A stretch of DNA of 64,000 bases from Mariniphaga anaerophila (GTDB lineage: Bacteria; Bacteroidota; Bacteroidia; Bacteroidales; Prolixibacteraceae), in contig NZ_FQUM01000006.1 of the NCBI RefSeq assembly GCF_900129025.1, forward strand, positions 310,001 to 374,000, given 5' to 3'. The position numbers and the translations under genes were made by a program. Numbering within the stretch: the first letter of the stretch is position 1; each line of letters starts with the position of its first letter. Shown here in pieces: positions 48,439-56,196 of this stretch. The notes under the pieces were generated by a model. The model made no database searches. It was not told the origin of the DNA and saw only the letters and a program-made list of their open reading frames with translations.

Positions 48439-48855
48439 ATGGAAAATTCATCAGAGAACATACCAACTACTCCTCATTTTTCGCTGAAAAAGAAAGAGCG
48501 CCTGTGTGGCAAAAAAGAAATGGACAAACTTTTTTCAGAGGGAGAAACATTCTTATTCTACCCGCTCAAAGTTGTCCATACTGAAATTAGCTTTCAGGAA
48601 CCATTCCTTGCCAAAGTTGGTTTTGCCGTCAGCAAAAAGCTATTTAAAAGGGCAGTGCGGCGTAACTTAATAAAACGCCGCATGCGCGAAGCTTACCGAC
48701 TAAACAAGCACCTGCTGACACCAGACGAACTGTCGACAAAAAAAGCCATCTTCTTTATTTACGTCAGCAAGGAAGTTCTGAGCTTCAAAACCATTGAAAA
48801 GGCCATGAAGAAAAGCTTGTCTTCGTTGGCCGAGAGCATCAATTCGGTTCCATAA
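48439..48855 (+). CDS. rnpA: Ribonuclease P protein component
   Basis: A 138-residue basic protein that assists the RNase P RNA in trimming tRNA 5' ends. The family signature is KKLFKRAVRRNLIKRRMREAYRL (about 74-96). I begin at the ATG at 48439 (MENSSEN); the longer frame would need TTG at 48430. The N-terminus is longer than in E. coli. Its last 17 bases overlap the stop region of the convergent DAHP synthase gene. Confidence 0.92.
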   Translation: MENSSENIPTTPHFSLKKKERLCGKKEMDKLFSEGETFLFYPLKVVHTEISFQEPFLAKVGFAVSKKLFKRAVRRNLIKRRMREAYRLNKHLLTPDELSTKKAIFFIYVSKEVLSFKTIEKAMKKSLSSLAESINSVP

Positions 48856-49930
48856 TTTCGGTCTGCATCCGAACAGAATCTTCGTGAATAAGCTGAAACA
48901 GAATTTTCACAAAAGTCTCGTTCAAATCCAGCTTTGTTCCGGTTTTTACCCGGTTTTCCATTAACTGAGCCCACCGGTTTATTTGCAACGCAGTAACGTT
49001 GTTTTCCTTTTTATACTTTCCTATTTCTTTTACAATAGTCACCCTGGAAGCAAGCAACTCCAGCAATTCTGAATCAATGGCGTCAATCCGGCTTCTGAGC
49101 ATATCCAAACGATTTTCGAACTCCGGGTTATTTGCCGACTGATGTCTGATAACAAGTCGGTCGAGCAGTTTGGCCAAATCGGCCGGCGTAACCTGCTGGG
49201 CAGCATCACTCAATGCACACGACGGGTCGATATGAGACTCAAGCATGAGCCCTTCCATTCCCATGTCAAATGCTTTTTGTGCGATTTCAAAAAGCAATTC
49301 CCTTTTTCCGGCAATGTGGCTTGGGTCGCAAATAATTGGCAAATTCGGCATTAAACGACGCAACTCAATTACTGTTTTCCAATTGGGGTAGTTGCGGTAA
49401 ACCGTTTCTCTAAATGGGGTGAACCCACGATGAATGGCTACAATATTTTTTATTCCGGCCTGGTAAATACGCTCAATTGCGCCCACCCACAACTGCACAT
49501 CGGGGTTAACCGGATTTTTAATCATTACCACTGCGTTACTGCCTTTTACAACGTCTGCAATTTCCTGCACTACAAACGGACTGGCAGTTGAACGTGCTCC
49601 GATCCAAATTACATCAAGCCCGGCTTTCAAAGCCTCTTCGGTGTGTTGCGCATTAGCAACTTCGGTACCAACAGGCAATCCGGTTTCCTGTTTTACGGTT
49701 TGTAACCATTTCAGCCCGATTGAACCAACTCCTTCGAATGAACCCGGACGCGTACGAGGTTTCCACACACCTCCCCGATAAACAAATACACGCGGATCTT
49801 TAGCCAGCAATCTGGCTGTATCAAGAGCTTGTTTTTCAGATTCGAGGCTGCACGGTCCGGAAATAAGGAGTGGGTTGTTAATGTGGGGCAACCACTCTTT
49901 TATCGGATTAATTTCAAATTTTGTACTCAT
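48839..49930 (-). CDS. Bifunctional DAHP synthase / chorismate mutase type II
   Basis: A 363-residue protein with two catalytic parts: a type I-beta-like DAHP synthase (about 1-265) with ISGPCSLES, YRGGVWKPRTRPGSFEG, ICDPSHIAGKRELL and the metal and phosphate contacts in them, joined to a C-terminal chorismate mutase of the AroQ class (about 275-355) with LDMLRSRIDAIDSELLELLASR. It makes the first shikimate precursor and turns chorismate into prephenate. Its ATG overlaps the tyrA stop by four bases, so both form one operon controlled by the upstream attenuator. Confidence 0.93.
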   Translation of the reverse strand: MSTKFEINPIKEWLPHINNPLLISGPCSLESEKQALDTARLLAKDPRVFVYRGGVWKPRTRPGSFEGVGSIGLKWLQTVKQETGLPVGTEVANAQHTEEALKAGLDVIWIGARSTASPFVVQEIADVVKGSNAVVMIKNPVNPDVQLWVGAIERIYQAGIKNIVAIHRGFTPFRETVYRNYPNWKTVIELRRLMPNLPIICDPSHIAGKRELLFEIAQKAFDMGMEGLMLESHIDPSCALSDAAQQVTPADLAKLLDRLVIRHQSANNPEFENRLDMLRSRIDAIDSELLELLASRVTIVKEIGKYKKENNVTALQINRWAQLMENRVKTGTKLDLNETFVKILFQLIHEDSVRMQTEIMEPN

Positions 49931-50829
49931 TGTTCTTTTGTATAAAGTTTTACAATTTTTTCTTCGTTTTTAATAAAATGTTGATTTCCTCCATCGAGAA
50001 TAGTTCTGATTTTATTGGCATTCAGAATAAGCTTTTCCAGCTCATCAAACTGATTGTTTTTCAGACAGTCGCGAAACTGCTGCAGGTGCTGAATATAAAC
50101 ATCCAGAGAATTAACCACATAGTTTCTGTTTTGTTCAAAAATTGGCTTCCACATTGAGCAGGAGCTTTTAGCTAATCTTACTGTAGAGCGAAAACCTCCG
50201 CTGGCGAGATCGAAAATGATGTTGCGATCTTCTTTAAACTGAACGGCATTGGCAAGTGCAAAAGCCGCTGCATGAGGCAAATGCGACACAAAAGCAGTAC
50301 TGTGATCCTGCTCGTCGGAAGTCATATAAGCAATGTTCATCCCAAGCACCTGAAACATTTTTTCAATTAGCGCAAGATGCTGCGGGCCTGAATCTTCCTG
50401 GTCGCAAACAATGGCAATTTTTCCCTTAAACAGCTCATCGATTGCTGCTGTTGGCCCTGAGTTTTCGGTTCCGGACATGGGATGAGAAGGAATAAATTGT
50501 TTCCTTTTAGGATGGTCTTTAACCAAATCTGCAATTAATTTTTTGGTTGATCCCATATCAATTACCGTTGTATTGCGATCCACGCCGTCGAGCACAGCCG
50601 GAAGCACTTCCAGCTCCTTGTCTACGGGAACTGCAACAATAATTAAATCGGCATCTTTAATTCCTGTTTCAAGCGGAACAACTTTATCAACCAGGCCCAG
50701 CTTCAGCGCTTCGCGGGCGTTTTCCTCACTGGCTTCAACACCCGTGAGTTCGGTTGCAAATTTTGTCCGCCTCAAATCTTTTGCAAGCGAACCACCAATT
50801 AATCCTAATCCAATAATTGTTATTTTCAT
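49927..50829 (-). CDS. tyrA: Prephenate dehydrogenase
   Basis: A 300-residue NAD(P)-dependent enzyme that makes 4-hydroxyphenylpyruvate for tyrosine. The nucleotide site is GLGLIGGSLAKDL (about 8-20), and the catalytic His is in FIPSHPMSGTENSGP. The long frame begins at TTG 50844, but the ATG at 50829 (MKITIIGLGLIGG) is the natural start. It overlaps the downstream DAHP synthase/chorismate mutase by four bases. Together with that gene it is switched by an attenuator with an aromatic leader peptide. Confidence 0.93.
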   Translation of the reverse strand: MKITIIGLGLIGGSLAKDLRRTKFATELTGVEASEENAREALKLGLVDKVVPLETGIKDADLIIVAVPVDKELEVLPAVLDGVDRNTTVIDMGSTKKLIADLVKDHPKRKQFIPSHPMSGTENSGPTAAIDELFKGKIAIVCDQEDSGPQHLALIEKMFQVLGMNIAYMTSDEQDHSTAFVSHLPHAAAFALANAVQFKEDRNIIFDLASGGFRSTVRLAKSSCSMWKPIFEQNRNYVVNSLDVYIQHLQQFRDCLKNNQFDELEKLILNANKIRTILDGGNQHFIKNEEKIVKLYTKEQ

Positions 50830-50842
50830 TTCAATTTTTTTC

Positions 50843-50872
50843 AAAAAAAAAGGCCCCGGAAACTCCGGGACC
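50843..50872 (-). terminator. Attenuator terminator of the tyrA operon
   Basis: Minus-strand hairpin: the strands 50864-50872 and 50852-50860 pair through eight base pairs with one mismatch around a three-base loop, followed by nine T, then tyrA. An alternative pairing of 50913-50919 with 50866-50872 (seven pairs, one G-U) excludes the terminator. Confidence 0.85.
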
Positions 50873-50903
50873 TTAGCAAAATATGTTTACGTATAACAAT
50901 ACC

Positions 50904-50978
50904 CTACTGGTTGATCCCGTTTTCAGAACCAAAATAAAAATACCAGTAATAAAATGTATTGTTAATTGTCGAATTCAT
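50904..50978 (-). CDS. Aromatic-rich leader peptide of the tyrA attenuator
   Basis: A 24-codon frame with ATG at 50978 and stop TAG at 50906-50904: MNSTINNTFYYWYFYFGSEN then GINQ. Codons 9-16 encode eight aromatic residues without interruption: three Phe, four Tyr and one Trp. Such a run in front of a Phe/Tyr synthesis operon, followed by mutually exclusive hairpins, is the hallmark of ribosome-mediated attenuation: stalling at these codons frees the antiterminator arm. A short protector hairpin (50927-50931 with 50908-50912) sequesters that arm otherwise. It begins about 19 bases after a -7 element. Confidence 0.9.
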   Translation of the reverse strand: MNSTINNTFYYWYFYFGSENGINQ

Positions 50979-50996
50979 TTTCTTTCAATTTGGAAG

Positions 50997-51004
50997 CAAA
51001 GATA
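50997..51004 (-). promoter_or_regulatory. Promoter -7 element of the tyrA operon (TATCTTTG)
   Basis: Minus-strand TATCTTTG matches TAnnTTTG, 18 bases before the leader peptide ATG. A TTG lies 22 bases further upstream, at 51027-51029, inside the end of the metalloprotease gene, roughly at the expected -33 place. Confidence 0.6.
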
Positions 51005-51014
51005 GCCATTAATT

Positions 51015-53486
51015 TTAATTACGAATCAATTTCTTTGCAAAAACCTGTTTTCCGTTTTCTTTCACCACCAGCAAATACAAACCTCCCGGGCCGTTATCAA
51101 TTTCAATTTCTTCTGAAATTGTTCCCAATACATTTTTATAGTTCACCTCTTTTATTTTCTGCCCGTAAACATTAAATAATTCAACCTGAATTTTTTCCAC
51201 CTGCTTTTTTATCCGGACACTCAGATGAAACGAACCTGAAAAAGGATTTGGATATGCAGTAAAATCACCGGGAGAAAGCACTGTCGGCAAAGCCGAAAGC
51301 GGCGATTGTATCTGTAAATTATCAATGGCCCATCCCCATCCGTGGGCGTAGGGATCGGAATACAACCTGAACCTGAACAAAACAGTATCCCGGGGAGAAA
51401 AATTCCCGTTTTCAAAAATATTTATCTGCTTGTTTACAAAAAGGTTCGGATTACCGGAAGCCAACGAATTACCATCTACAACAAAATCGTTATACTTCAC
51501 TTCCCAAGATTCACTTTCTCTCGCATCGTAGCCATCGGTTACCGGAAGCCACGTTTCTCCAAAGTCTTTGCTGCCCTCTACAATCACATAGTCCCAAAAC
51601 TCAAAATCTCCATAAGCTGTATCATCAGAACCCGGCTCAACAAGCACAATCTCGTCGAAACTCATTTGGGCTTCGCTGCTAAGCACAATCGGATATTTCA
51701 GGTTGCAAATAAAATTAAACTCTGCATCATCTAATCCCGGGCTGGGGTAGGGGTGAAGACTGTGCAATGCTCCACTTTCAAATCCCTTTTCTGTATATAT
51801 ATCAAAATCGAAAAGAATAAAATCAGTTGTCGGATTGTCAAAACTATTCTGATAATCTGCCACCGGTTCAAACATTTTCTCAACCCGAAAAGAAAAGCTG
51901 TTTTCTGACGGGAGTCTTGTTGTATTTTTCGATACAGATACATCCTTTGCCACCACAGAATATTCAATCAGGTCGCCCTCGTTCAGCAAATCCGAAACCA
52001 GCGGAAATACCGATGAGTAGTGCATTCCCAAGCCATGTGAAAGCCCAAATGGCGGTTGTGGCTGCCCATTAATCGAATACTCTACATAAACGGTATCAAT
52101 ACCCAAATTATCATCTGCGCGAACACTAATTTCAAGACTTTTCCCGGTGGCAAAAAAGTAAGGAATCGAATCGTGCTCAACTTCCGGCAAAATATCATCC
52201 GGGCCAAAATTCACTTCAAAAAACTCTTCCGGAGCGTCAAAAGGATTTGTAAAAACCCTCCCTTTTTGATCTTTGGCAGTTAAGTAATACTGAACTTTTG
52301 GGTTTTCTGCATCGGGGGTCCACTGTGCTTCGAAATAACCATTTTCGTTAAATGTCAGAGGAATTGAGTCTACCTGAACATTAAATGTATCCGAAGAAAC
52401 AACCACAAATAATTCAGCAGTATCCAGTGGCAAATCGCTAACAATCTCAACGTTGAAATCAAGCGGTTTTACTTGCTCCTGATCTTTAATGGGCGTAAAC
52501 TCCAGCAGAGTGGTTTTCCAGCCCAAGTCTCCAAAAATGCCCATTGCGAGCGGCCCCGGATTATGAATTGCCTCACCTCTGCTGAGTGCTGGCGTCATTA
52601 ACGAATTAATATTTCCAGCGGGATAACTCACCTCATTCAGATGATAAATACTAGACCCGTCATCCCAGGAAGAGGGAGCATAAAGGCGGGGAAGTTTGGT
52701 CGATCCTTCTTCAACAGCAACCGGGCTGTTTGCATACAACAAACCCGACTCCAGGGTATTTTTCAATAAAACAGAAGGATTTGCAAAAACAGCAGCATCG
52801 ATAAGTTTTGTGCCATCAAATTTTTCTACCAATCTGTCGAAAGACGTTATCTCTCCATCTGACCAGCCATAACCACCAACCTGACCCTCAACATAAAAGA
52901 AACCGGTAAAACCCAGACCGTGACACATTTCGTGCAACACAACTGAAACCAAATCGTACTGAAGAGCAGGAGTGTCTCCGTCAGTTCCAAAATACCAGTT
53001 AATATCCTGATTGAAATTGGCAAGAATATCCGGACGACCTGAGCCGGTTAGCTCTTTCCTTGAAATTTTCTCGGCGAGTGCTATCGGGTAGTAAACATTC
53101 TTTTGTGGCGCTTCTTCAAAATTCCTTTTGTAATCAGACGGACCACAATTTCCCAACACATTTTTTCCGAGAGAACTCCAATTGGCGTCGACATAAACAG
53201 GAACAGAAGATTCGAACAACTGTTCCAGAATGCTTATGGCATAGCTAAAAGCCTGTTGCGCTTCCGGAGAAAAATTATTGTACGTCACTATAAAATCAGA
53301 TTTCTGCTCGGCTGATTTTAGCGCACTCATTACTTCGGCAGGCGGCGGAATAAATCCTTTTTCAACCTTATCGGATGCATAACAAACCTGAGGCACCGGA
53401 GTAATTCCCCGCTTCTGCCACAATTTCTGTCCGGTGGCCGAAAATGCAACCGCCAGCATAAAAAACACAACAAGCCCTTTTTGCAT
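51015..53486 (-). CDS. T9SS-exported HExxH metalloprotease, first copy
   Basis: An 823-residue secreted protein: signal peptide (about 1-19), a metalloprotease domain (about 60-330) with the zinc motif HEMCHGLGFTG (185-195), a likely Met-turn NSLMTPALSRGEAIHNPG (about 293-310), then beta-rich Ig-like and jelly-roll regions (about 330-735), and a type IX sorting domain beginning AYPNPFSGSFHLSV and ending VFAKKLIRN. The third zinc ligand of classic metzincins is not obvious. It is a paralogue of the gene beginning 260 bases upstream; the substrates are unknown. Its last few codons carry the -33 region of the tyrA promoter. Confidence 0.85.
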   Translation of the reverse strand: MQKGLVVFFMLAVAFSATGQKLWQKRGITPVPQVCYASDKVEKGFIPPPAEVMSALKSAEQKSDFIVTYNNFSPEAQQAFSYAISILEQLFESSVPVYVDANWSSLGKNVLGNCGPSDYKRNFEEAPQKNVYYPIALAEKISRKELTGSGRPDILANFNQDINWYFGTDGDTPALQYDLVSVVLHEMCHGLGFTGFFYVEGQVGGYGWSDGEITSFDRLVEKFDGTKLIDAAVFANPSVLLKNTLESGLLYANSPVAVEEGSTKLPRLYAPSSWDDGSSIYHLNEVSYPAGNINSLMTPALSRGEAIHNPGPLAMGIFGDLGWKTTLLEFTPIKDQEQVKPLDFNVEIVSDLPLDTAELFVVVSSDTFNVQVDSIPLTFNENGYFEAQWTPDAENPKVQYYLTAKDQKGRVFTNPFDAPEEFFEVNFGPDDILPEVEHDSIPYFFATGKSLEISVRADDNLGIDTVYVEYSINGQPQPPFGLSHGLGMHYSSVFPLVSDLLNEGDLIEYSVVAKDVSVSKNTTRLPSENSFSFRVEKMFEPVADYQNSFDNPTTDFILFDFDIYTEKGFESGALHSLHPYPSPGLDDAEFNFICNLKYPIVLSSEAQMSFDEIVLVEPGSDDTAYGDFEFWDYVIVEGSKDFGETWLPVTDGYDARESESWEVKYNDFVVDGNSLASGNPNLFVNKQINIFENGNFSPRDTVLFRFRLYSDPYAHGWGWAIDNLQIQSPLSALPTVLSPGDFTAYPNPFSGSFHLSVRIKKQVEKIQVELFNVYGQKIKEVNYKNVLGTISEEIEIDNGPGGLYLLVVKENGKQVFAKKLIRN

Positions 53487-53745: not shown

Positions 53746-56196
53746 CTAGTTTTTTACTATTTTGTTGGTAGCCACAATCTGGTTTCCACTGGTTATGTTT
53801 ACCATATAGATTCCCGGACTGACTCCCGATAAATCAATCTGTGCCCTCGACGAATAAAAAGGTTCAATACCTGTTTCACGACGAATAATTTTACCGTACA
53901 AATCAGACAGAACAATTTCTATCGGGGAATTTTGATCGGCCTCAAACCATTCTACATACAAATGGTTTTTTGCCGGATTAGGATAAACCTGGAAACTGCC
54001 TTCGGCAAACAGTTCTTCTGTGGCAGTCGTCATCTCCTGAATTTTTAGATTGTCGATAGCCCATCCAAAACCAACTACTGAATTATCGGAAGCCATTCTG
54101 AAACGAATTAATACCGTATCACCAGCTTCCAAACTTGTGCTTTGGGTAAGGTTAATTGTACGATTTACAAACAAACTTTCATGAGGTTGAGCTTCAGATG
54201 TGTTATTAGAAAAACCACTTTTGAAGGCAGTATACCAGGTATCATTTATTCCGGAATCGTACTCGTCGGTTAAAGGCAACCAACTGATTCCATTATCTTT
54301 ACTCGCTTCAATAACTACAAAGTCGCACAATTGTTGTTCCACTTCGCGGCTTCCAGGCTCTACCAAAACAACCTCGTCAAAAGAGAGCTGTCCGTTAGAC
54401 TGAACAACAACCGGATACTTAAGCTGAGCTACCAGGTTGAATTTCTCTTTTTCAAGAGCAGAAACCGGGTAGGGATTTTTTGTGTGCAAGAGGTTTCCTT
54501 CTATCCCGTTGAGCGATGAAATGCCAAAGTCCGAAACAATGAAGTCATTCTCTGCTCCATCAAAGTTGGTGGCATATCCGGAAACAGGTTCGTATATCGA
54601 GCCAACTTCTACCTTCTGAAAACCCATTGCAGGAAACATCCTTTTATTTCCCCTCGAAGAATTGTCAATGGCAATTATGCGGTACTCCAGCCTGTCTGTT
54701 GTTTCCATTTTATTCTGAAACTGTAATTTGCCTGTGTAGAGTCCACTCTGCTCTGTTTCGAGAGAAAAAGGCTCCTGCAAAACGCCATTAATTTTATATT
54801 CAACAGTTACCGATTTGATTCCCACATTATCTTTGGCTTCAGCACTCAATTCTACTTCAGAAACCGTTCCGGCAACAGCTTTTACCGGATTGTGAAACAG
54901 GTCAGGCACATAATAATCAGGGCCAATTCGCAACGTAAATTTCCGGGACGGAGCATCAGCCGGATTTCTAAATACGCGCCCTTCGTTTGTTTTTACTTCG
55001 ATGTAATAGTCAACTTTGCCGGTTGCGTAGTTAAGCTGCAATTTCCCTTCGAAATCAGACGCGCTTCCGGCTTGCGTTAAAACTGCCGCATTGGCTGTCG
55101 AAAAATTATCAGAAGAGTAAACTACTCTCACCGTTGAAAAATCTTCGTCAGAATCAGAAACCAAGCCCATTTCTACAGGAATTTCAGCAACCGCTTGTTC
55201 GATATCTTTTAACGGTTCAAATTCAAACTTAACAGAGCTCCATCCCAACTCAGCCAGAATTTGAATAGTAACTTCGCCCGGATTATGAATCGCCTCTCCT
55301 TTTCTTGCGGAAGGCGTCATCAGACTGTTTTCTTCGCCATACTGATAACCTTTGAGGTGATATATACTGGAGCCTTCATTCCAAACTTCCGGAGCAAATA
55401 TCCAGTCAATTGTGTTGTACTGTTCAGCAGAGCCGGTCTGGCAAAATTTCAGATTGTCTGAGGTAAGCTGCTTGTGCAAATCGTACGACGGGCTTTCAAA
55501 CAATGATTTGTCTGCAATTTTCTGGTTCTGATAATTAAAAATATAGTGGTCGTAAATGCTGGGCAAATTGCTTTCGCTATAGAAAAACCCTTTACCGCCT
55601 GAATCTTTCAAAAATCCGGAAAATCCAAGTCCATGTGTAACTTCATGAAGAACTGAGCTCACAAAATCGTACTTGTTAGATGGCGTATTTCCATCAGTTC
55701 CAAAATACCAATTTATCTTATTATTAAACTGACAAATAATATCCGCTTCACTGCCATTTAGATCTTTACCCGTAAGTTTTTCAGCCAAAGCAACCGGATA
55801 AAAAGTATCGCGCAACGGCGCACCGCTAAAATTCCGGTAAAAAACAGAAGGCCTGCCTTCTGCCAATACATTTACGCCCATATCTTCCCAGTATGCATCC
55901 AACTGAATGGAAACCGAAGAAACAAGCAGTGATTCCCAAATGGAAATGGCATATTGAAAAGCTTGTTTTGCTTCTTCCGGAAAATTATGATAGGTAACCT
56001 TAATGGATGATTGCGATACTTTTGATGATTTCAGTTGCCTGAACTCTTGCGGAGGGGCAACATATATTTTGTTAACTTCTTCCAGTGCAATATTAATAAG
56101 GCTTTCGCTTTGGGCTGTAGTTCCTTTAAAGCTTCCCTGTGCCCAAGTATTGCCTGTCACAAAAACCAAAAAAGCTATTTGAATTAACCACCGCAT
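53746..56196 (-). CDS. T9SS-exported HExxH metalloprotease, second copy
   Basis: An 816-residue paralogue of the gene at 51.0 kb: signal peptide (about 1-19), zinc motif HEVTHGLGFSG (184-194), Met-turn-like LMTPSARKGEAIHNPGEV, the same Ig-like middle (EVELSAEAKDNVGIKSVTVEYKING), a jelly-roll region, and a sorting domain from VYPNPAKNHLYVEWFEADQN to ATNKIVKN. Both copies share the YAISI and GTDG(N/D)TP segments, so they arose by duplication. They are exported by the type IX system and probably digest protein. A histidine kinase is divergent on its 5' side. Confidence 0.85.
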   Translation of the reverse strand: MRWLIQIAFLVFVTGNTWAQGSFKGTTAQSESLINIALEEVNKIYVAPPQEFRQLKSSKVSQSSIKVTYHNFPEEAKQAFQYAISIWESLLVSSVSIQLDAYWEDMGVNVLAEGRPSVFYRNFSGAPLRDTFYPVALAEKLTGKDLNGSEADIICQFNNKINWYFGTDGNTPSNKYDFVSSVLHEVTHGLGFSGFLKDSGGKGFFYSESNLPSIYDHYIFNYQNQKIADKSLFESPSYDLHKQLTSDNLKFCQTGSAEQYNTIDWIFAPEVWNEGSSIYHLKGYQYGEENSLMTPSARKGEAIHNPGEVTIQILAELGWSSVKFEFEPLKDIEQAVAEIPVEMGLVSDSDEDFSTVRVVYSSDNFSTANAAVLTQAGSASDFEGKLQLNYATGKVDYYIEVKTNEGRVFRNPADAPSRKFTLRIGPDYYVPDLFHNPVKAVAGTVSEVELSAEAKDNVGIKSVTVEYKINGVLQEPFSLETEQSGLYTGKLQFQNKMETTDRLEYRIIAIDNSSRGNKRMFPAMGFQKVEVGSIYEPVSGYATNFDGAENDFIVSDFGISSLNGIEGNLLHTKNPYPVSALEKEKFNLVAQLKYPVVVQSNGQLSFDEVVLVEPGSREVEQQLCDFVVIEASKDNGISWLPLTDEYDSGINDTWYTAFKSGFSNNTSEAQPHESLFVNRTINLTQSTSLEAGDTVLIRFRMASDNSVVGFGWAIDNLKIQEMTTATEELFAEGSFQVYPNPAKNHLYVEWFEADQNSPIEIVLSDLYGKIIRRETGIEPFYSSRAQIDLSGVSPGIYMVNITSGNQIVATNKIVKN

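Follow-up and report, generated by a model that had tools for sequence, protein, structure and literature searches.

The locus in front of tyrA in Mariniphaga anaerophila raises the question of how this gene and its downstream neighbour, a fused DAHP synthase/chorismate mutase gene, are switched, and which amino acids the switch reads. The stretch of 64,000 nt analysed here is referred to as the window. Judged from sequence comparison and folding models, the locus is very probably (about 93%) a ribosome-mediated transcription attenuator that senses the aromatic amino acid pool.

Results

The leader region upstream of tyrA

The features of the locus are listed in Table 1. The run of eight Phe, Tyr or Trp codons is unique in the six frames of the 64-kb window, where the next longest has six. 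A WFYYYY run at +16570 was rejected as a leader, as it lies in an alternate frame within coding-looking sequence. The region 50985-50845 folds with a z-score of -5.0, and none of 200 shuffles was equally stable. The ATG at 50829 is most likely the start of tyrA, 20 nt after the end of the terminator.

A sequence-only reading of this DNA had placed a promoter motif, a 24-codon leader with FYYWYFYF and a T-tailed terminator before tyrA and the DAHP synthase/chorismate mutase gene, and all three are present there. The antiterminator that it drew between 50913-50919 and 50866-50872 is exact, with CGGGATC complementing GGTCCCG, and its two mutually exclusive pairings indeed have segment 3 in common. 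The protector hairpin that it described is found again as the inner hairpin of the minimum-energy fold, and is refined by P1, a longer-range stem beside it that encloses the aromatic run, is conserved and covaries.

The leader is preceded by a gene on the same strand, 51015-53486 (-), which ends 36 nt from the leader ATG. This gene and the adjacent 53746-56196 (-) look alike, code for 823 and 816 aa, respectively, with HExxHGLGF metalloprotease-like motifs recognised by eye, and are probably tandem paralogues.

Table 1. Features of the attenuator locus in the window, listed in the direction of transcription except for the paired strands of P1.
Feature	Position	Strand	Evidence
Promoter motif TATCTTTG (TAnnTTTG, Bacteroidota-type -7 motif)	50997..51004	-	sequence
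Putative leader ORF MNSTINNTFYYWYFYFGSENGINQ, 24 codons + stop	50904..50978	-	ORF reading, family loci
Protector stem P1, 5' strand AACAATAC (segment 1)	50956..50963	-	covariation
Protector stem P1, 3' strand GTATTGTT	50895..50902	-	covariation
Aromatic control codons F Y Y W Y F Y F, codons 9-16 (n = 8)	50931..50954	-	
Inner protector hairpin hiding CGGGATC, 50931-50924 with 50919-50912	50912..50931	-	minimum-energy fold only
Antiterminator 5' strand CGGGATC (segment 2)	50913..50919	-	pairs with 50872-50866
Segment 3 GGTCCCG, antiterminator 3' strand and part of terminator 5' arm	50866..50872	-	
Predicted intrinsic terminator hairpin AAGGTCCCGGAGTTTCCGGGGCCTT, 11 pairs, then T tract	50850..50874	-	fold, covariation
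tyrA, prephenate dehydrogenase, first regulated gene	49927..50829	-	PDH_N, PDH_C
DAHP synthase/chorismate mutase fusion, second regulated gene	48839..49930	-	DAHP_synth_1, CM_2

Conservation in Prolixibacteraceae

Of 60 genomes, own included, 47 gave a TyrA match, some of these matches being weak. The closest TyrA relatives among titled records are from Mariniphaga, followed by Tangfeifania, Draconibacterium and other Prolixibacteraceae. At 30 family loci, own included, an aromatic-rich short ORF lies upstream of tyrA in every case, and a terminator is present at all of them (27 recognised by script and three, L009, L010 and L018, by eye). The promoter motif occurs in the 80 nt preceding the leader ATG at 27/30 loci; of 5000 stretches of this length drawn at random from the window, 3.4% contain it. 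Phe and Tyr exchange freely at most positions of the run, while Trp is kept at run position 4 in 25/30 loci.

A covariance model built from the alignment of these loci (A1, 30 sequences) matches 126/140 genomes of the family and all 23 genera, with one match in the own genome. Among good-quality genomes (completeness of 90% or more, contamination of 5% or less), 100/103 have a match; 11 of the 14 genomes without one are outside this class.

The sequence-only reading had pointed to relatives as the place where aromatic codons and compensatory changes should be kept, and both are found there. In A1, 224/240 aligned positions of the eight-codon run are aromatic. In the larger alignment A2, with 65 distinct sequences counted, 97.6% of antiterminator cells are paired and three of the seven pairs have changed on both sides; for the protector stem P1 and the terminator taken together, the paired share is 92.2%.

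Covariation of the alternative pairings

When all column pairs of A1 were scanned for helices, the longest found were the antiterminator (seven pairs) and the terminator (nine pairs), with P1 as a six-pair stem round the run; further helices of 4-5 pairs were also present. A scan of A2 (66 sequences) recovered the antiterminator and terminator again. P1 was not seen there as an unbroken run of at least five pairs under an 80% rule per pair, since just 75% of sequences have one of its pairs. On A1, 90.2% of cells of P1 and the terminator are paired and 11/17 pairs have changes on both sides; for the antiterminator, 97.1% of cells are paired, with such changes in 3/7 pairs.

A2 was fitted to P1 and the terminator, not to the antiterminator. 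Covariation in the protector, antiterminator and terminator exceeds that in shuffles. For the antiterminator on A2, 13 double-changed cells were counted vs 2.8 in shuffles, and its number of pairs changed on both sides was equalled in 18/500 shuffles; its number of further pair types was equalled in 112/500. Antiterminators slid out of register pair in 15-64% of cells, and the control slid by +2 has 17 double-changed cells vs 13 observed, though just 32.1% of its cells pair. The antiterminator covariation in these alignments is real but modest. In two loci, L019 and L030, the leader stop precedes GGGATC and GGGATC is retained, so that the segment is conserved as RNA and not as peptide.

Proposed mechanism and ribosome-occupancy model

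The sequences show the elements of the switch, that these are conserved and covary, and that codon content follows the operon; from this we infer where transcription starts, that the leader is translated, how stalling and termination itself would come about, and the physiology. RNA polymerase would start just below TATCTTTG, and a ribosome would translate the leader. A shortage of charged aromatic tRNAs would make the ribosome wait in the eight Phe/Tyr/Trp codons and cover segment 1, AACAATAC, so that the protector is blocked. Segment 2 could then pair with segment 3, no terminator would form, and tyrA and the DAHP synthase/chorismate mutase gene would be transcribed. With ample aromatic amino acids, the ribosome would reach the stop codon and cover segment 2, and the terminator (segment 3 with its partner, segment 4) would end transcription.

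This course of events was modelled by folding the RNA as far as the loop of the terminator while a ribosome block was set on each codon in turn; its footprint was assumed to extend 16 nt upstream and 13 nt downstream of the A-site codon's first base. The modelled antiterminator probability is 0.95-0.99 for each of the eight aromatic codons (9-16) in the A site; it falls to 0.22 at codon 17 and is 0.00 from codon 18. Codons preceding the run give 0.65-0.99 and thus permit the antiterminator too; only on its downstream side is the run sharply bounded in the model. Under two alternative footprints the pattern is unchanged and the downstream edge shifts by about one codon; the exact match to the eight codons therefore partly reflects the choice of footprint. 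Without a ribosome, P1/protector has a probability of 0.78 and the antiterminator 0.20. The antiterminator and terminator hairpins of the window are near each other in stability (-17.3 and -18.6 kcal/mol, respectively).

For the 30 leaders of the family (own included), the mean antiterminator probability is 0.84-0.90 along the run and 0.00 at the stop. Values averaging above 0.5 in the run were obtained for 28/30 leaders, and above 0.5 at the stop for none of the 30. L009 and L010 score zero because they are without an in-register 7-bp antiterminator. The ribosome-free antiterminator has a mean of 0.44 in the family (above 0.5 in 14/30, at most 0.5 in 16/30), and the rule that no translation means termination is therefore not general, though it is true of the window. 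In a wider set of 105 leaders from the survey described below, mean capture of the terminator arm is 0.74 when the ribosome sits on aromatic codons, falls to 0.40 when it is at the stop, and is 0.63 if there is no ribosome; the predicted direction is followed by more than 0.2 in 75/105 leaders and reversed in two, compared with 27/105 for shuffled arms. The modelled position rule is thus weaker in the wider set than in the family. It comes from an equilibrium calculation applied to what would be a kinetic process.

Survey across Bacteroidia

Elsewhere in the phylum, the covariance model gave 37 non-own matches, of which 29 had loci and were read; these comprise 15 aromatic leaders before pheA, three leaders of other operons (L063, L065 and L073) and 11 chance-like terminators. 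Weak model scores alone were therefore not counted as members. In other families of the order, 23/25 loci read lie upstream of pheA or of an aminotransferase gene of such operons. Genes at the phylum and order loci were recognised by eye from the sequence, except at L065, which was searched.

As weak matches outside the family were informative, a survey independent of the model was anchored on genes. In the order, the anchor PF00800 was found in 83/179 genomes and PF02153 above cut-off in 92/179; beyond the order, anchors came from the phylum sample, in which 32 genomes of the own class but of other orders carry pheA. An aromatic leader with a terminator was found at 104/144 pheA/tyrA anchors, vs 0/720 shuffles and 5/144 reverse strands, and was not detected at the other 40/144 under this standard rule. 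A wider terminator rule made 105 anchors positive, with reverse strands again at 5/144; the leader gained before tyrA of genome G571 had been missed by the standard rule. Some anchors had limited upstream DNA: the leader of G561 was missed at the 2300-nt limit, as the operon starts beyond it, and was seen on reading more DNA; in G638, G672 and G765 the aminotransferase starts near the end of the DNA read, so that the lack of a detected leader there says little; and G041 (pheA), G651 and G676 have just 39-210 nt of upstream DNA.

Where pheA is linked to tyrA, a leader was found at 57/65 loci in the order and 18/24 in the class. Where the two genes are apart, it was found at 7/15 pheA and 7/15 tyrA loci in the order, and at 1/3 pheA and 0/3 tyrA loci in the class. 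For tyrA with no pheA found the count is 7/11, and for pheA with no tyrA found it is 2/2 (order) and 5/5 (class). The one linked pair with tyrA first had no leader (0/1), and none was found upstream of the stand-alone pheA of the own genome and two relatives. Leader peptides elsewhere in the class have little in common beyond the aromatic run. Upstream of tyrA in L200 (G742) and L288 (G762), a second aromatic leader candidate with a terminator lies near the first (MQSIHTYYWSFYYFNTK and MAIINNNYYYHYLFANRGR, respectively), and these double leaders are perhaps tandem attenuators.

Control codons and operon content

Operon content was read by tblastn, and a pheA was judged to be stand-alone over 2.0-3.0 kb from the start of the pheA match. 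Leaders of stand-alone pheA (n = 5; no aminotransferase, tyrA or DAHP synthase detected) have 29 Phe, 2 Tyr and no Trp codons. These totals are quoted for the five clean cases because the group of eight leaders before pheA with tyrA elsewhere was impure, G574, G698 and G165 also having a DAHP synthase gene. Leaders of tyrA operons without pheA (n = 14) have 42 Phe, 63 Tyr and 8 Trp codons, and those of joint pheA-tyrA operons (n = 75) have 376, 277 and 21, respectively. Seven pheA leaders with no tyrA found have 31 Phe, 26 Tyr and 3 Trp codons; DAHP synthase lies downstream in 6/7 of them, so that the mixed run is no surprise and linkage to tyrA itself is not required. Leaders with Trp codons make up 8/14 in tyrA operons vs 27/90 in pheA-first operons (p = 0.067, with genomes treated as independent and groups partly impure), and no difference is claimed.

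A pheA leader and a tyrA leader occur together in five genomes; in every one of these, the pheA leader is wholly or almost wholly Phe, and the tyrA leader is richer in Tyr. They represent three lineages, since G571/G918 and G630/G810 are same-genus pairs. A within-genome contrast is seen in G571 (L245, about 2250-2400), with FFFFFF before stand-alone pheA and YYAWSFFFFYF before tyrA. In these genomes, the control codons correspond to what the operon makes. Such tracking is expected of codon-based sensing, not of peptide-based sensing.

Alternative explanations

TnaC is a leader peptide that stalls the ribosome on binding a free aromatic compound. A nascent-peptide arrest of that kind, in place of codon starvation, would suit the hydrophobic peptide and the GSxxGI-like tail of many family members, and is nevertheless improbable. 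Phe and Tyr replace each other at most positions of the run, the tail is absent in L019 and L030 while their RNA is retained, and the codon make-up tracks operon content across the class.

It is still less probable that the hairpin is the ordinary terminator of the upstream gene 51015-53486, with the leader and the alternative pairings incidental, although that gene ends so close to the leader ATG and no other terminator-like site is listed between. By tblastn, a homologue of the upstream gene is present at 14/30 loci, own included, whereas the leader is at 30/30; a promoter motif intervenes before the leader in nearly all of them (27/30); and neither the aromatic codons nor the antiterminator would be explained.

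A functional small membrane peptide expressed from its own gene would account for the conservation of an aromatic-rich peptide of 24 residues across the family, but is very improbable, as the peptides elsewhere in the class share little beyond the aromatic run, the terminator follows the ORF directly and the alternative RNA pairings covary. Equally improbable is a riboswitch or T-box that responds to a bound metabolite or tRNA and makes no use of the ORF: a structured leader upstream of biosynthetic genes would fit it, but no match at gathering score was found in the window to any of 4227 Rfam families, leader families such as Phe_leader and Trp_leader included, and the codon content tracks the products.

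What the attenuator may sense

Two PF00793 matches were found in the own genome, one of them the window gene; the other is presumably, and most likely, a KDO-8-phosphate synthase gene, of the same Pfam family. A type II DAHP synthase was not found in this genome. The window operon thus probably carries the only DAHP synthase of the genome, the enzyme at which the synthesis of all three aromatic amino acids begins. As it probably guards this sole enzyme, the mixed run most plausibly serves as a multivalent sensor, which would account for the mix of Phe and Tyr codons with a conserved Trp codon. One switch would then sense the whole aromatic pool.

Other candidate amino acid leaders

At 9/18 loci of short-type phenylalanine hydroxylase genes (PF00351), a Tyr-run leader with a terminator was found (shuffles 0/180, reverse strands 0/18). 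The best six codons of these nine leaders total 1 Phe, 36 Tyr and 1 Trp. No leader was found at ten long-type loci, two of which, L351 and L352, are anchored inside the gene and uninformative. The set comprised 30 loci, of which 28 were scanned by script and L354 and L356 were left out. Short Tyr-run leaders with a terminator (such as YYYY, YYYYY and YYWY) are present in the 600 nt upstream of the PF00351 match in L332, L336, L337, L340, L343, L344, L346, L347 and L348, and at 1501-1633 in L065. By their sequence, the Tyr-run leaders before phenylalanine-4-hydroxylase are apparently Tyr-specific attenuators on a Tyr-making enzyme.

Three further leaders precede genes recognised by eye. At L073, 1501-1630 (-), the leader MRTILNNTWWWSNLRQTS and a terminator are followed by an anthranilate synthase-like gene, which makes it a candidate Trp attenuator. 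The leader MIFNTSIITTIIITTG at L063, 1501-1632 (-), has Thr/Ile codons and a terminator before an aspartokinase-like gene and is a possible Thr/Ile attenuator. At L153 (-), the leader MYNQFIISSIIIAGVISHSGKE with a terminator-like hairpin precedes a branched-chain aminotransferase-like gene and is possibly an Ile attenuator.

Discussion

The anatomy of the window element can be compared with that of the E. coli pheA and trp leader attenuators. It resembles them in a leader ORF with control codons, in the logic of protector, antiterminator and terminator, and in the biosynthetic operon downstream. Unlike them, it mixes Phe, Tyr and Trp codons, belongs to a host from Bacteroidota, has as segment 1 the codons just before the run and segment 2 inside the leader ORF, and gives no Rfam match at gathering score. 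The ilvGMEDA and ilvBN attenuators sense several branched-chain amino acids. The window element is like them in that a single leader would read several amino acids of one pathway family, but its leader is aromatic and not branched-chain, and it controls tyrA and DAHP synthase. A comparative study of attenuation by Vitreschak et al. from 2004 reportedly touched on Bacteroidetes. In PMC1183508, pheA, trp and others, as well as ilvGMEDA/ilvBN, are named as attenuated.

In the same phylum, structured 5' elements before pheA and hisG are reported for Flavobacterium psychrophilum and are kept in other Flavobacteriaceae, and its authors see strong signs that operons for amino acids in Flavobacterium are preceded by leader-peptide attenuators (PMC9723704). 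As attenuation before such operons was already suggested there, the window element adds to a known type. The available part of that report gives no leader peptide or model and mentions neither tyrA-first operons nor Prolixibacteraceae (PMC9723704). Leader-like sORFs in long 5' UTRs, for example BT_4401, are described from Bacteroides thetaiotaomicron, also of this phylum, in PMC7366714, the main text of which does not contain the words "aromatic" and "tryptophan". Among the matches listed from the open-licence literature, at the level of titles and starts of abstracts, neither a tyrA-first aromatic attenuator in Bacteroidota nor a Tyr leader on phenylalanine hydroxylase is described. The view of the sequence-only reading that attenuators of this kind are much less described in Bacteroidota agrees with the available parts of PMC2965389 and PMC9723704.

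As a type the switch is classic; in Bacteroidota it has been little described, yet it looks common there. The alignments make a case that classic ribosome-mediated attenuation is common for the control of aromatic synthesis in a large phylum, where, in the literature available in part, it has so far been merely hinted at. As the operons were split and joined several times, their leaders are a natural experiment on control codons tracking gene content. The covariance model is now usable to find such leaders, and a Tyr-sensing leader on phenylalanine hydroxylase is predicted.

It is somewhat more likely than not that Bacteroidia run aromatic synthesis largely by leader-peptide attenuation, with the codon set rewritten at each re-cutting of the operon: a lone pheA would have Phe codons only, phenylalanine hydroxylase Tyr codons only and joint operons a Phe/Tyr mixture, while a trivalent Phe/Tyr/Trp set with one fixed Trp would go with operons that, like the one in the window, combine tyrA with the sole DAHP synthase. 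Bacteroidota make little use of Shine-Dalgarno signals, and leaders of this kind would imply that transcription and translation are closely coupled in this phylum.
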